NCBI GenBank assembly: GCA_009784825.1
Contig: WQXO01000010.1
Span: forward strand, 1-64,000
Length of the DNA: 64,000 nucleotides
Direction of reading: 5' to 3'
Origin: Oscillospiraceae bacterium
Lineage (GTDB): Bacteria; Bacillota; Clostridia; Oscillospirales; Ruminococcaceae
The notes beneath the pieces were generated by a model that saw only the letters and a list, made by a program, of their open reading frames with translations, had not been told where the DNA came from and searched no databases. Of this stretch, positions 57,861-64,000 are shown in pieces (within the stretch, counting starts at the first letter, position 1; every line of letters starts with the position of its first letter). Both the position numbers and the translations under genes were made by a program.

Positions 57861-58424
57861 ATGAGGAAATATATCTGCCCGATTTGCGGTTACATACATG
57901 AAGGGGAAAATCCGCCCGTGTTCTGCCCGTTATGCAAGTGCGGCGGGAAGAAGTTCGAGCGTTCGTCAGAGGTGGTTGCACCGAAAATCGCCCCTGTGGC
58001 TGTTATTGGGGATGAACCATCGTCTATTCCGGAAACTGAGCCGTTTTTTGAACCTGACCCGGAATTACCCGAACCGGAGCCGGTAATTGAACCGGAAGCG
58101 GTATTGTCTGAACCGGAATCGGTGCTGCCTGAACCCGAACCTGTTATTGAACCGGAAGCAGTAAGTGAACCTGAGCCTGTTTTTGAACCGGAAGCAGTAA
58201 GTGAACCCGAGCCTGCTCCTGAAATAAAAGAAACGCCGAGTTCATCGGCGACTGCATCTGTTATATCTGATTCTGCTGAAACGGGAATGTTCTTGATTAT
58301 GTCGAAAGCCGCACATAATGCGGGTTATCCCGAGTTCGCCGAAGCGTTTATGCGGATTGCGATGGATAAGGCGGAGGAGTCTGCCGGTTCTGTCGGATTA
58401 TTGTTGAAAAAATATATGAAATGA
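57861..58424 (+). CDS. Rubredoxin-like protein with Pro-Glu repeat linker
   Basis: 187 residues in three parts. The N-terminal rubredoxin-type site ([31 protein letters not shown], about 3-33) with two CxxC pairs would bind iron. A linker of repeated EPEP/EPEAV units (about 55-125) follows. The C-terminal helix [34 protein letters not shown] (about 140-173) resembles one helix of reverse rubrerythrin, where the motif normally ends EEAEHAA. The iron-binding His is lost and the rest of the four-helix bundle is absent. Probably a derived or reduced rubrerythrin relative; peroxide reduction is doubtful. Confidence 0.7.
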
Positions 58425-58427
58425 TTA

Positions 58428-58456
58428 TTGACATTTGTTTACCAATGTGTTATAAT
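58428..58456 (+). promoter_or_regulatory. tRNA promoter
   Basis: TTGACA (58428-58433), 17 bp, TATAAT (58451-58456), a perfect sigma-A match directly ahead of the tRNA pair. Confidence 0.85.
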
Positions 58457-58469
58457 GTCATGGCACTCA

Positions 58470-58521
58470 GCGTCGGTAGCTCAATTGGATAGAGCGTCTG
58501 GCTACGGACCAGAAGGTCTGT
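58470..58521 (+). pseudogene. Truncated tRNA-Arg(ACG)-like gene
   Basis: 5' acceptor strand GCGTCGG, D-arm, anticodon arm TCTGG-CTACGGA-CCAGA and variable loop of a tRNA-Arg are present, then similarity stops; the T-arm and 3' acceptor strand are missing. Differences from the intact neighbour are compensatory in the anticodon stem (TCTGG/CCAGA versus TTTGG/CCAAA), so this was once a separate functional gene. Confidence 0.8.
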
Positions 58522-58559
58522 TGAATAATTCATGCATAATTTCGAGAAAATATACACAC

Positions 58560-58633
58560 GCGCCGGTAGCTCAATTGGATAGAGCGTTTGGCTACGGACC
58601 AAAAGGCTGGGGGTTCAAGTCCTCTCCGGCGTA
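58560..58633 (+). tRNA. tRNA-Arg (anticodon ACG)
   Basis: Complete cloverleaf: acceptor GCGCCGG / CCGGCGT (G1-U72 wobble), D-arm TAGCTCAATTGGATAGAGC, anticodon loop CTACGGA with ACG, T-loop TTCAAGT. CCA is not encoded. Preceded by a truncated copy and followed by a terminator and an integrase gene on the other strand, so it is a likely attachment site. Confidence 0.95.
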
Positions 58634-58670
58634 TCTGTGGACTTAGTGTAAACAAAGTCCTACCCGCTAT

Positions 58671-58702
58671 TACATCTAACTTTACGTTGGATGTATTTTT
58701 TT
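58671..58702 (+). terminator. Terminator after tRNA-Arg
   Basis: Ten-base stem TACATCTAAC-TTTAC-GTTGGATGTA followed by seven T residues. Confidence 0.88.
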
Positions 58703-58966
58703 GTGCCATTCATTTTTATTTTGTTGTTTTTGAGATTTATGTTTATACAGAAATTGTGTATAAAAATATGTCCGAAATCTCTTTGCTAACATTCTGCTAA
58801 CATTTGAAAAATACGCAGCCTGTGCGAGCAGTGCAGATGTGCGTTTCTTGCGTGTAAACCAACTATACTTTATATATAAACACGTTTAGGTTTACACTGC
58901 ATAAACTATAAACTACACCACTCTGTAACAAAATAATCAATGAATATTTTCTGCATATTTCCTTAA
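58703..58966. other. Non-coding region between tRNA-Arg and integrase
   Basis: No gene. It contains two direct repeats TGCTAACATT (58784-58793, 58795-58804) and a nine-base inverted repeat GTGTAAACC / GGTTTACAC (58852-58860, 58889-58897) around an AT-rich centre. These could be arm-type recombinase sites of the integrated element; that is inference. Confidence 0.5.
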
Positions 58967-60313
58967 TTATCCGTTGATTAATGCGGAGAGAAAACGCTGT
59001 TGCATTTCGGGGTCTGACTTGATTATAGCGATGAAATTATTCATGTTCTCATCCGGTGAATAAGAAACTGTTGATTCGGAACTGGTGTTGTTGTAGAAAT
59101 CCTGCTCGACCTGCTTCATCATGGAAATACGGTTTTCATCTCTTGTGTGTGCATACGTATCAATAACCATTTTTGCGGAAGCGTGCCCTGTGTCACCTTG
59201 AACAGACTTAATATCACCACCGCTGACCTTAAGCTTATATGTCGTACCTGAATGACGAATTTCGTGGAAAATTAATCCCGACACATTAAGGTGTGTTCTT
59301 GACTGCCACTTTTTAAACCACTTTTCACATAACGCCGGCTCAACAGGTGAACCATCATCCTGTGTAAAAACTAAGTCATGGTCAGTGTAATCATCCGCCA
59401 TAAACTGCTTTTGCCTTTGTACAAAAGACAATCTTTCCAAGAGTTCTTCCTTTAACGGTTCTGTAATGAATATTTCGCGTATACTTTCTTCCGTTTTAGG
59501 AGATTTCAAGATAAGCAATGACTTCGATTCCCTTTTGGGCTCAAACGTCTTAATAAGTTGTGTTGGTGGGATTTCCTCCAATGCTTCCTTATCTGCTCGC
59601 TGCATGATTTTGTTAATATAGATTTTACCGTTCACAAAATCTACGCACTCCCAAGTTAAGCCGGTGACTTCACCTATCCGTAATGTACATATAAATGCAA
59701 GATGTACAGCTAAATGAAGTTGTTTATGCTCTATTTCACCGAGTATCGACTTAACCAACCCTATATCCCAAGCTTTCCGATTTGACTTTAACTTTAGGGG
59801 TGCTTTACAGATTACAGGGTTTGAGCGGATTAGTTGCCATTCAACCGCTTTATCAAAGGCTGTTTTAAGAATAAAATAGATATGCCTCGCTGTGGTTGAA
59901 GACAAAAGCGGGGTTTCGCTCTCTTCCTTATTGTATGATTTACTTCCTAAAACGCGAGTGTTTTTAAGATTACGCATAAAGATTTCAATCATCAATGGAG
60001 TTATATTAGCAAGTTGTGCATCCCCTAATTTGGGTAGAATATGGTTTTCAATCATACACTTATTAGAGGCATAGGTTTTATACTGCCATTTTTCCTTGCC
60101 GTAAATGTCGACCCACTGTGCTAAGAACTCCCGAAGAGTTGCGGTTGTAGGGATTATCAAGTTCCCATTTAGTTTTTCATTCTCAACTTGGCTTTTGAAA
60201 CGCTGAGCTTCTTTCTTGTCAGAACATGATTTCCATTTTTGTTTTCTTTCTCCGTCTTTGTAATAGTCGTAAATAACTGTGTATTTACCATTCCTTTTTT
60301 GTATTGTTGCCAT
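58967..60313 (-). CDS. int: Phage-type tyrosine recombinase/integrase
   Basis: About 448 residues. N-terminal AP2-like arm-binding domain (MATIQKRNGKYTVIYDYYKDGERKQKWKSC), SAM-like core-binding domain (about 70-165) and catalytic domain with Arg in TLRIGEVTGL (about 215), HEIRHSGTTYKL (His-x-x-Arg, about 362), GHASAKMVIDTYAH (His and the nucleophilic Tyr, about 385-397). All catalytic residues are present. Start at MATIQ, eight bases after AAAGGA. It points toward the tRNA-Arg, the usual layout of an element integrated at that tRNA. Confidence 0.94.
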   Translation of the reverse strand: MATIQKRNGKYTVIYDYYKDGERKQKWKSCSDKKEAQRFKSQVENEKLNGNLIIPTTATLREFLAQWVDIYGKEKWQYKTYASNKCMIENHILPKLGDAQLANITPLMIEIFMRNLKNTRVLGSKSYNKEESETPLLSSTTARHIYFILKTAFDKAVEWQLIRSNPVICKAPLKLKSNRKAWDIGLVKSILGEIEHKQLHLAVHLAFICTLRIGEVTGLTWECVDFVNGKIYINKIMQRADKEALEEIPPTQLIKTFEPKRESKSLLILKSPKTEESIREIFITEPLKEELLERLSFVQRQKQFMADDYTDHDLVFTQDDGSPVEPALCEKWFKKWQSRTHLNVSGLIFHEIRHSGTTYKLKVSGGDIKSVQGDTGHASAKMVIDTYAHTRDENRISMMKQVEQDFYNNTSSESTVSYSPDENMNNFIAIIKSDPEMQQRFLSALING

Positions 60314-60331
60314 AATGACCATCCTTTCAGA

Positions 60332-60577
60332 TTAAATTTCAGTCCGGCAACAAGCAAACCAATTGTCAAAAGACTCCTTATGCACCCTGACGCACCTGCC
60401 AATGTGAACAACTTTGAATTCATCTGTTTTATTGCAAAAGTCATATGCTGTTCTTTTGCTTATTTTAAGCATTTCGGCAATTTCCGATACTTTATAAGTC
60501 ATAGAGCCTTTTTTAGTATGTCTTCTTGAGTTGCATTGTTGTTCATCAGGCTGAATAAGTAGATTTTCAGCAATCAT
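60332..60577 (-). CDS. Excisionase-like MerR/HTH_17 DNA-binding protein
   Basis: 81 residues. The core YKVSEIAEMLKISKRTAYDFCNKTDEFKVVHIGRCVRVHKESFDNW is the helix-turn-helix/wing pattern of small excisionase-family proteins. GGAGGT nine bases before ATG 60577 supports the full-length start, although Met26 is closer to the domain. It directly precedes int, so likely controls integration direction. Confidence 0.88.
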   Translation of the reverse strand: MIAENLLIQPDEQQCNSRRHTKKGSMTYKVSEIAEMLKISKRTAYDFCNKTDEFKVVHIGRCVRVHKESFDNWFACCRTEI

Positions 60578-60911: not shown

Positions 60912-63458
60912 TTATAGGGAGACCATCCCTTCTGCGGTATAATGTGATATATCTGAGAGTATATTTACATTTGGAGAATGGTCCAATATGATTTTTTTGG
61001 CTATTTCAATATTATAGTACATCAACTCAAGTTCATATTCTGAAAACGCACTTCTTCTTTTTTCAACAATGAACACTACATTGAACTCTTCGTCTTTATC
61101 AACTTTACCAGCTGTAACATTGAAAATCTCAGAAGTTGTGTGTGTCGAAACACCTAACACCTCAGAAGTTATTTCTTCCTCTAAGTCAAGCCCTAAGAAG
61201 TCGAACCACTTTTCCATGTCCATAAGACAGTAAGTTCCGAGTTCATCCACCTCAGTATATAATATATTATTCTCAATGTCAAACTTTGTTTCAATCGGGA
61301 GCGACATATTTATCTCATCGAACCACTTGAACACGTTTATTCGCTTAATTCCGACAAATTCCGGGTGGTCGGTGAAAATATCAAGCTCATTTGGGAGGTA
61401 TTCGTCCATGATTTCAAACTTCAATGTGACGCTTTCGATTATGTAATGTTCGGGATAAATCAATTCCGGCGTCACCCCGAGCATCATATCGTTCTTCATT
61501 ACATAGGAATAGCCGCTCTGACCTACAATGAGATTGCTCTCAACCCAGCCGGAAGCCTCAATTTCAATCGAAAGTTGGAAATACTCGTTTCCATCGTTTA
61601 TTCCTGCAAGAACAGGACTGTCGTTAGTTATAACCTGTGTTACAACATGCTCTATATCGGGATAACCGAATGTTTCGGGGTTGTTGGGGTCTAACCCTAA
61701 TTTAATCTCGTCCCCGTCCCAAACCCCGTCACCGTCTGTATCGGGGTTAAGCGGGTCGGTGAAGTATACGAATATTTCTTCGTAATCGGTAAGACCGTCA
61801 CCATCGGTATCGGGATTCCACGGGTCGGTTCCGTACAGGTATTCCTCATAGTTGGTAAGCCCGTCTCCATCAAAGTCATATTCACCGTCGGACTTGCCCT
61901 CACCGAGAGTATCGTATTTCAATGGGTCTGTACCCAGCACAAACACCTCATACCCATCGGGTAACCCATCACCATCGGTATCGGGGTTAAATGGGTCTGT
62001 ACCTAAGATTAACTCATATATATCGGGTAATCCGTCTTCATCACTGTCTATGTAAATGAAACCATATGTACCGAATTCATTAAGCTGTAACACTACATCG
62101 TTGGAAACGAGGTTTTCTTCGTCTTGCATTACCTTTTCCACAATAAATATATATTCGTCCTTGTATTCAGCTAAGGGGAACGTGAATATATTATCATCGG
62201 CAATTTCCGCAAGAAGTGTGTCGGTAGACGTATCAATTGCTAACGGGTGACTATCGCTGCTTTTCTCATACACACGATAAGTACCCTCAATTTCCTTATA
62301 CCCCCATTCTATGAGAATGGAGTCGGTTTCAGTATCATATGCCGCAAACGCAATAAGGGCATTTAAGTCTTTATACCAGTCACCATGTAACAATCTGATC
62401 GTGTTATCAGTGTCATAGCTTAGCCTAACTATGTAAATATAATCAACTGAACCTATTTTTATGGTTTTTGCTGTTTCAAAGGAAGTTATGCTGTTTCCCG
62501 GAGGATTTGCACTGAGTTCATTATCCATTGCAAACGCTATATTTGCAAATATGGAGAACGCAAGTATGAAACAAAGCATTAAACTTGATATTTTCAATGC
62601 TCTCTTAGACAAGCGGGTTCTGTATTTAACACCCACTATCACACCTGCTGTAATCATAACTACGGGGACTGCCCATAGCAGAAATCTTAAATTTGATGAA
62701 GATTTCTCATTATCCGTCTCTGTTGCAGTTAATATCTCATCGGCATTACCTACCACAACGGGCTGTACCCCCGAAGGTTCTTCGGGGATAATCGGGTTTA
62801 TTACACCTAAACCATCTGCTTCATTTTCTCTTTCAATAGATTCGGCAGGGGTGTTAGGCTCTGTATCTTCAATAGAATTGTTATTTGAAATATCTTGTTG
62901 TATATGGTTAGTTTCTGCGGGGATATGTTCGTTACCGCCAACAGGTACAGTATTATGATTATCGAAATCAGCCGCATAACCACCGGGGACATCTATATCA
63001 TCAACTATGTTATCGGGAGTAATTGCATCTGCGTGAGCCACTGTATTTGGCGGAATAATCGGATTAACAGACACGGGAGGGTTAGCGGGTGGATTGACTA
63101 ACCCTGCGTTGATTTCGACTACTGCAACGCTTACTTCAACTTTTTCGCCTGCCGCAAAGCTCCTCACCTCTGTTAAATTGCCATTCCCCGACACTCTTAA
63201 GCCGTGAGGGATTATATGTTCAATAATAACATTCTCGACAGGGAACGGGTTTGTGTTTTCGATAACAACAGTGATTACGGGCGTTTCGCCTCCCGAGTAC
63301 GAGGGCTTGTCCGTTGTTATGGTTACACTTAATCCGTCCTTGTTTCCCACGCCCGAATGTACACCGTTACTCGTTAAACCGGAAGGGAAGATGATTATTG
63401 TACACATTATTGCTACAAATATGATGAAGTACATGGATGTCTTTATTGGCTTAAGCAT
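60912..63458 (-). CDS. Large surface protein with thrombospondin type 3 repeats
   Basis: 848 residues. Signal peptide (about 1-33); a CARDB/DUF11-like beta domain (about 35-115); an Asn/Pro-rich linker; a membrane segment (about 250-270) with basic RTRLSKR; then a second signal-like hydrophobic stretch ending IFANIAFA (about 282-304); a fibronectin-like part; TSP type 3 calcium repeats DTDGDGLPDGYE, DTDGDGLTDYEE, DTDGDGVWDGDE (about 475-600); a beta domain; and finally VVFIVEKRRSAFSEYELE, the opening of a degenerate VWA-like domain that stops soon after. It looks like two surface proteins joined and cut at the C-terminus. GGAGG precedes the ATG. Confidence 0.8.
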   Translation of the reverse strand: MLKPIKTSMYFIIFVAIMCTIIIFPSGLTSNGVHSGVGNKDGLSVTITTDKPSYSGGETPVITVVIENTNPFPVENVIIEHIIPHGLRVSGNGNLTEVRSFAAGEKVEVSVAVVEINAGLVNPPANPPVSVNPIIPPNTVAHADAITPDNIVDDIDVPGGYAADFDNHNTVPVGGNEHIPAETNHIQQDISNNNSIEDTEPNTPAESIERENEADGLGVINPIIPEEPSGVQPVVVGNADEILTATETDNEKSSSNLRFLLWAVPVVMITAGVIVGVKYRTRLSKRALKISSLMLCFILAFSIFANIAFAMDNELSANPPGNSITSFETAKTIKIGSVDYIYIVRLSYDTDNTIRLLHGDWYKDLNALIAFAAYDTETDSILIEWGYKEIEGTYRVYEKSSDSHPLAIDTSTDTLLAEIADDNIFTFPLAEYKDEYIFIVEKVMQDEENLVSNDVVLQLNEFGTYGFIYIDSDEDGLPDIYELILGTDPFNPDTDGDGLPDGYEVFVLGTDPLKYDTLGEGKSDGEYDFDGDGLTNYEEYLYGTDPWNPDTDGDGLTDYEEIFVYFTDPLNPDTDGDGVWDGDEIKLGLDPNNPETFGYPDIEHVVTQVITNDSPVLAGINDGNEYFQLSIEIEASGWVESNLIVGQSGYSYVMKNDMMLGVTPELIYPEHYIIESVTLKFEIMDEYLPNELDIFTDHPEFVGIKRINVFKWFDEINMSLPIETKFDIENNILYTEVDELGTYCLMDMEKWFDFLGLDLEEEITSEVLGVSTHTTSEIFNVTAGKVDKDEEFNVVFIVEKRRSAFSEYELELMYYNIEIAKKIILDHSPNVNILSDISHYTAEGMVSL

Positions 63459-63504
63459 TTGTGCCTCCGATTATATATTAATATTTTTATTTCCAAATAT
63501 GTTT

Positions 63505-64000
63505 CTAACGGACACGTACCCTATAACTTCCAACTACACTTTCTTTTGGTTTTAATGAGTTATCAAGTTTTTTTATATCTTCTTTACTAAGGGTTACAGG
63601 GTAAAAGCTTTCAACATGCTTTTCACCATTAATCCATGTAATGTATTCCGTCAACCCATTACTGTAAGAAAGTGTTATTCCAGAAATATTACTTTCGATT
63701 CCACCAATCATTTTACTTACTTCCATTGAAATATTATAAATAGTAATATCTGAAACATTTGTCAGTTCAAAAGTTGTTACAACAGATGTGTCCTCAATTA
63801 TAAGGTGTTTTATATCTAAATGCAATGCCTGACCGCCCCAAACCTTTAAAGGTGGGTCGGATTTGAATACTATATTCACCTCTTCTCCGAAAGGCATTAA
63901 AAATCCACTAAAATGAGCTTCAATATTATACTCGCCAGCTGTATCACCTCTAATTATCCATGATTCTGTAACAGTTTTTCCACCCTTTACGCTTCCTAAA
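63505..64000 (-). CDS. Partial surface protein, N-terminal part beyond the window
   Basis: The ORF track starts at Met 63897, but the frame stays open to the window edge (GGKTVTESWIIRGDTAGEY and onward), so this is the C-terminal end of a longer protein. The beta-rich segment (MPFGEEVNIVFKSDPPLKVWGG) resembles repeat modules of large clostridial surface proteins. It ends with ESVVGSYRVRVR, 46 bp before the next surface-protein gene. No membrane anchor is seen in this part. Confidence 0.7.
   Translation of the reverse strand, partial: LGSVKGGKTVTESWIIRGDTAGEYNIEAHFSGFLMPFGEEVNIVFKSDPPLKVWGGQALHLDIKHLIIEDTSVVTTFELTNVSDITIYNISMEVSKMIGGIESNISGITLSYSNGLTEYITWINGEKHVESFYPVTLSKEDIKKLDNSLKPKESVVGSYRVRVR

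Follow-up and report, generated by a model that had tools for sequence, protein, structure and literature searches.

A broken tRNA-Arg(ACG) gene beside an intact copy: the very probable left end of an integrated element that brings its own whole tRNA gene

Introduction

Integrative elements can accrete in tandem by repeated integration at one tRNA locus. In the loci considered here the trace differs in that it outlasts the bodies of the older elements, as half-tRNA units of about 70–124 bp.

The closest known kind of system is the tRNA-dependent lysogeny of actinophages (Fionnbharth, cluster L), in which an essential tRNA is disrupted and a spare is supplied (Guerrero-Bustamante & Hatfull, 2024; PMC10865867). 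Its relation to canonical integration was called unclear by these authors and its spread outside the actinophages was left open. The elements that we describe from Clostridia likewise encode a tRNA of the same isotype as the gene they enter and use a short common core, of about 8–10 bp in relatives and only bracketed in our locus. The host gene is likewise single-copy for tRNA-Arg(ACG) in the genome analysed here. The tRNA gene is cut and not rebuilt in six relatives; our locus shows the 5' half. However, the tRNA of the actinophages lies elsewhere in the phage genome with its own promoter, whereas that of the Clostridia elements lies inside attP, is promoterless and would be served by the promoter of the host. 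The latter elements also differ in keeping the core, in stacking into arrays and in having conjugative-type relatives. We have not filed them under tRNA-dependent lysogeny because a temperate-phage nature was not found: relatives carry MobA/MobL, T4SS coupling and CD1107-like proteins, and no element was found in viral contigs by spacer or right-end patterns.

Rhizobium temperate phages of the vTRX32-1 type use a 12-bp core in tRNA-Leu and bear a replacement tRNA without the core, by which the authors suggest that super-integration is prevented (PMC8631192). Here, in contrast, the core is retained and super-integration is what the arrays record. With canonical islands (Islander; PMC4383910) our elements share a tyrosine integrase, a crossover in the anticodon loop and, at the far end, a displaced 3' fragment. 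Such islands restore the host gene with its 3' part, which is all that they carry of it, whereas our elements replace the gene in full and leave a 5' half behind; in relatives attR does not repeat the 3' part of the working tRNA, and its halves mate instead with the cut 5' half.

What is new here is the capture of a promoter, the tRNA inside attP, the renewable target, the half-tRNA arrays and the presence of all this on conjugative-type elements in Clostridia. We found no description of whole-tRNA attP sites or half-tRNA arrays in the open-access literature, which proves no absence.

Anatomy of the locus

The window, that is the whole stretch of DNA analysed, comprises the first 64,000 nt of a 68,372-bp contig from a genome of 2.18 Mb in 32 contigs. 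An earlier, sequence-only reading had described a perfect promoter, a tRNA-Arg copy lacking the T-arm and 3' end, an intact copy in tandem, a terminator, recombinase-like repeats and an inward-facing integrase with an excisionase gene. This anatomy was borne out in each part (Table 1). On the + strand the consensus promoter is followed by the 5' part of a tRNA-Arg(ACG) (58470–58520), the intact copy and the terminator; downstream lie the GCTAACATT repeats, with GCTAAC at 58785 and 58796, and then the tyrosine integrase (Phage_integrase, 4.8e-17, plus a SAM-like domain at the N-terminus; Pfam) and the small helix-turn-helix gene.

Table 1. Features of the tRNA-Arg(ACG) locus, in window coordinates
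Feature	Position	Strand	Basis or comment
Host promoter TTGACA-17-TATAAT, TG before -10	58428–58456	+	12/12 consensus match; read as captured by the element
5' half of the resident tRNA-Arg(ACG), from the 5' strand of the acceptor stem through the anticodon loop CTACGGA	58470–58508	+	Similarity to the intact copy
Probable crossover core CTACGGA (anticodon loop)	58502–58508	+	Analogy with the CCTCCTAA/CTACGAA cores mapped in relatives
Spacer, read as element-carried attP arm, probably a decayed tRNA 3' half	58509–58559	+	Resembles the G012 and G339 spacers
Intact promoterless tRNA-Arg(ACG), read as element-carried	58560–58633	+	ARAGORN, Rfam
Renewed core CTACGGA in the element's tRNA, which would be open to further integration	58592–58598	+	Sequence; stacked halves in relatives
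Terminator, 10-bp stem and T run	58671–58702 (also given as 58671–58695)	+	
Two direct repeats (T)GCTAACATT, probable arm-type integrase sites	58782–58804	+	
Tyrosine integrase, 451 aa	58967–60322	-	Pfam PF00589, PF14659
HTH_17 protein, probable excisionase	60332–60577	-	Pfam PF12728, 1e-9

The intact copy scores 63.9 bits and is the single intact match by ARAGORN and Rfam. The truncated copy (58470–58516) is 94% identical to it over 47 nt at a spacing of 90 bp and scores 28.5 bits, under the family cut-off (Rfam). Among 41 tRNA-like matches genome-wide (Rfam) the intact copy is the sole tRNA-Arg(ACG); for arginine, the anticodons TCT, CCG and CCT were also seen.

The anticodon stems of the two copies, TCTGG/CCAGA and TTTGG/CCAAA, show the compensatory difference from which it had been argued that both copies were once functional. 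The difference is as described, but the conclusion does not follow, because the spacer of the element is the probable source of the 3' strand in the truncated copy. Since the anticodon stem of the half is perfectly paired and the 12 nt past the loop are still tRNA-like, the crossover position in the window is bracketed only to 58470–58520 and is not mapped.

To the left (57861–58424) lies a Rubredoxin-like gene in which a long proline/glutamate repeat is combined with a conserved segment at the C-terminus; its relatives are common in the genus. To the right of the excisionase gene are two large surface-type protein genes (window 60912–64000 and L002 5912–13370) with TSP3/DUF11 followed by fn3 and PKD domains, over 1621 aa. 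The contig stops 8 kb past the integrase, at 68372, inside the second, repetitive surface-protein gene, and only surface-protein genes are visible there.

Half-tRNA loci in related genomes

The integrase was used to search 295 genomes of the order, and named genomes were scanned later. Its relatives in the 295 genomes are 29–42% identical to it and, where a tRNA is nearby, most adjoin tRNA-Arg(CCT). These intact tRNAs are preceded by one or more tRNA 5' halves, each ending at the anticodon loop CCTCCTAA and followed by a spacer of about 30–85 bp and then by the next half or the full tRNA. The collection comprises 44 half-bearing loci and 61 distinct units, with hosts that include Lachnospiraceae and Oscillospiraceae. 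For 51 integrase homologs of the sample no tRNA was detected within 900 bp. All 46 integrase loci at tRNA-Arg(CCT), near-identical elements being counted separately here and elsewhere, bear one half or more, as detected by script in 44 and by eye in two. A strict half-plus-copy pattern occurs in 25 of 394 genomes of the order and in none of the reversed control, so the tandem structure of the window type is not due to chance.

Arrays hold up to five halves. Five are found in G256 (C19, L102), where successive 93-bp units are identical; repeated self-integration, several units inside one element or duplication could each have produced them. That each half stands for one invasion is the simplest reading only, as an attP of several units may bring in more than one half in a single event. 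Halves and invasions may differ in number, since units could travel in such an attP or duplicate.

A promoter matching at least 10 of 12 consensus positions lies within 100 bp upstream of the first half at 23 of 43 loci; none was found in the last 100 bp of the array before the intact tRNA at any of the 43. The tRNA-Lys loci and the Faecalibacterium tRNA-Arg(ACG) loci have a canonical look, with the promoter directly before the tRNA.

The crossover position is best seen in four Lachnospiraceae loci (L194, L195, L215 and L217), in which four different host halves precede one and the same spacer and tRNA, with identity starting at GCCTCCTAAG. Identity to the host extends no further than the anticodon loop in relatives, and the common core mapped in them spans about 8–10 bp. 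Where the spacers of two units are at least 85% alike, the downstream tRNAs are 93% alike and the upstream halves 80%. From the four host halves and from these two similarities, it follows that the spacer travels with the downstream tRNA and that the upstream half is part of whatever stood there before.

Within the genus of the window, comparable tRNA-Arg(ACG) layouts occur in three genomes, G339 (two halves), G012 (one) and G020. The G012 and G339 spacers resemble that of the window; as to whether the tandem structure goes with an integrase, both contigs stop about 300 bp past the tRNA. In G020 the half is disturbed by a hairpin and the integrase, 65% identical to that of the window, is truncated at the N-terminus. 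On the reverse strand of G020 contig C102 (L278, about 740–1095) there are two tRNA-Arg-like genes whose anticodon stem contains an inserted palindromic hairpin immediately ahead of CTACAGAACC; the carriers are the first half and a full-length copy downstream of the intact tRNA.

The sequence-only reading had proposed a comparison with empty sites in relatives. This yielded one candidate, G328, in which the best relative of the left-flanking gene of the window is followed directly by one intact tRNA-Arg(ACG), with no integrase in the 15 kb read. Support for G328 as an empty site is moderate, because it has only that one flanking gene in common with the window and the others are not conserved.

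Far ends and stacking

In eight relatives the core recurs ahead of a solitary tRNA 3' half, at 6 to 68 kb from the near end. In six of them this displaced 3' half pairs at 12 of 12 bp (seven in the acceptor stem and five in the anticodon stem) with a 5' half of its own site. The mate is the first half of the site in G043, G172, G394, G382 and G258, and none of the 30–33 halves from other genomes pairs. In G205 the mate is the second half; this is a common tRNA type and ten other halves pair too. No mate for the far-end 3' half was found at the sites of G256 and G070. The earlier expectation had been an attR that duplicates the 3' end of the intact tRNA; six relatives show the 3' half of the broken gene instead. 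In a canonical-mode relative (G258, C13) attR does match the tRNA's 3' half exactly.

For the window, the suggested search past the right edge for a tRNA 3' end met the end of the contig at 68372, and no such 3' half is assembled. Three patterns for a displaced 3' half, run over its whole genome, returned only the intact gene and scattered chance matches.

In relatives, TTTGCTAAT repeats are present on the tRNA side and at the right end. Past the far ends of G394, G256 and G205 there are further arm-type GCTAAT repeats; none was seen in the 330 bp read beyond those of G172, G382, G258 and G043. The displaced 3' half and terminator of G394 and G205 resemble an element-carried intact tRNA gene from another genome (of G070 type and G248 type), the resemblance that stacked integration would predict. 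The older elements are largely lost, since no second integrase lies within 6 kb beyond the far ends of G394, G256 and G205.

Alternative explanations

We regard the window locus as very probably the attL of an integrated element that brought its own whole tRNA. An ordinary tandem duplication of the resident tRNA-Arg(ACG), with the first copy decaying afterwards and the integrase as an incidental neighbour, would account for two similar copies 90 bp apart, could make identical array units such as those of G256 and fits the absence of attR from the window's assembly. However, the units in relatives always end at the anticodon loop, with the missing 3' half kilobases away, and successive units often have unrelated spacers and different tRNAs. 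On this last ground duplication is rejected as the general cause of the arrays, and for the window we consider it unlikely. Canonical anticodon- or T-loop integration, in which the second copy was rebuilt from a host 5' part and an element 3' part and the first was broken independently, has precedents within the integrase family at tRNA-Arg(ACG) and at tRNA-Lys in Faecalibacterium, with an attR as in G258. In the window, though, the intact copy lacks a promoter of its own and the genome holds no duplicate of its 3' half, while the half-plus-intact layout recurs in same-genus relatives; such a history is very improbable.

The half might instead be a functional leader RNA kept by selection, for example as a decoy or as a regulator of the downstream tRNA. 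It must be transcribed together with the intact tRNA, and two hairpins are predicted (-20.3 kcal/mol, z -1.7), yet this folding barely beats that of shuffled sequences, the spacers belong to many unrelated families and upstream halves decay in arrays (G070), so that we give the idea hardly any credence. Under the attL reading, the proposal that integration broke one copy very probably holds for the first of the two. The intact one, however, is most likely the element's own and not a resident tandem gene.

Proposed mechanism and implications

In our model of the integrated element, attP would comprise a right-end arm, the anticodon-loop core, a short spacer, a complete promoterless tRNA-Arg, the terminator, the arm-type repeats and the integrase. 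The integrase would act on the resident tRNA-Arg(ACG) by strand exchange within its anticodon loop, so that the left end keeps the host promoter and 5' half and the 3' half is moved to the far end (attR). The captured promoter would then drive transcription across the half and the spacer into the intact tRNA of the element, which would replace the destroyed one and again offer an intact core to the next element. Since the core persists in the new tRNA, this could in turn be entered by further elements, and arrays of halves would build up.

The model draws on the window anatomy and, in relatives, on the crossover position, the displaced 3' halves, the arrays and the stacking, all of which can be read from the sequences themselves. 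By analogy, the window element presumably took the same path as those of its relatives; because its far end is not assembled, its case rests on them and on the one candidate empty site. As for expression of the tRNA, the simplest reading is that transcription runs through from the captured host promoter, and excision would be expected to restore the old gene.

Elements that rebuild a tRNA need a matching 3' half of about 40 bp, while one that carries a whole tRNA needs only the core of about 8–10 bp. Entry into the diverged tRNA genes of many hosts is therefore possible. The tRNA of the host thereafter belongs to the element. The loci also bear on the question of spread, as the mode is common in Clostridia, and the arrays would let the invasion history of one site be read. 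More generally, we think it fairly likely that conjugative-type elements across the Clostridia carry a promoterless whole tRNA in attP, with which they replace the tRNA, capture its promoter and renew the site, that an array is an ordered register of invasions and that the decayed T-loop of some spacers betrays a canonical, tRNA-rebuilding origin.

Nature and origin of the elements

The motif GTTCRA occurs at offset 9–10 after the core in seven of 29 spacer families (shuffled mean 0.25, maximum 3, 2000 trials). These spacers look like a decayed 3' half with a shortened variable region, and such a vestigial T-loop bears on the question of origin, suggesting that the mode descends from canonical elements that once rebuilt the tRNA. 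In an integrase tree the window enzyme falls together with L143, which has halves, and the canonical L144, both at ACG, and outside the large CCT clade; the placement is tentative because the branches are long. As this clade mixes half-bearing L143 with canonical L144, the mode appears to have arisen more than once or to have been lost in places.

No relatives were found in viral contigs with the window integrase alone as query, and three scans of these contigs for right-end and spacer patterns gave no free form; an alignment scan returned 18 loci, mostly weak. No free circular form was seen. The circular 'plasmid' record OY725843 was considered as a free attP and rejected, as it also has a 5' half beside its tRNA.

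The visible end of the window element, an integrase with an HTH_17 gene (a predicted excisionase), is as in integrative conjugative or mobilizable elements. The relatives with both ends found look like elements of these kinds because of their MobA/MobL, T4SS coupling and CD1107-like proteins. The G258 element encodes a MobA/MobL relaxase and a T4SS coupling protein, that of G172 a topoisomerase, an NlpC/P60 enzyme and a CD1107-like mobile-element protein, and that of G043 is a 6-kb remnant with an IS21-type insertion. The G172 element also carries a gene of the APH phosphotransferase family (L110, 1919–2710; Pfam PF01636).
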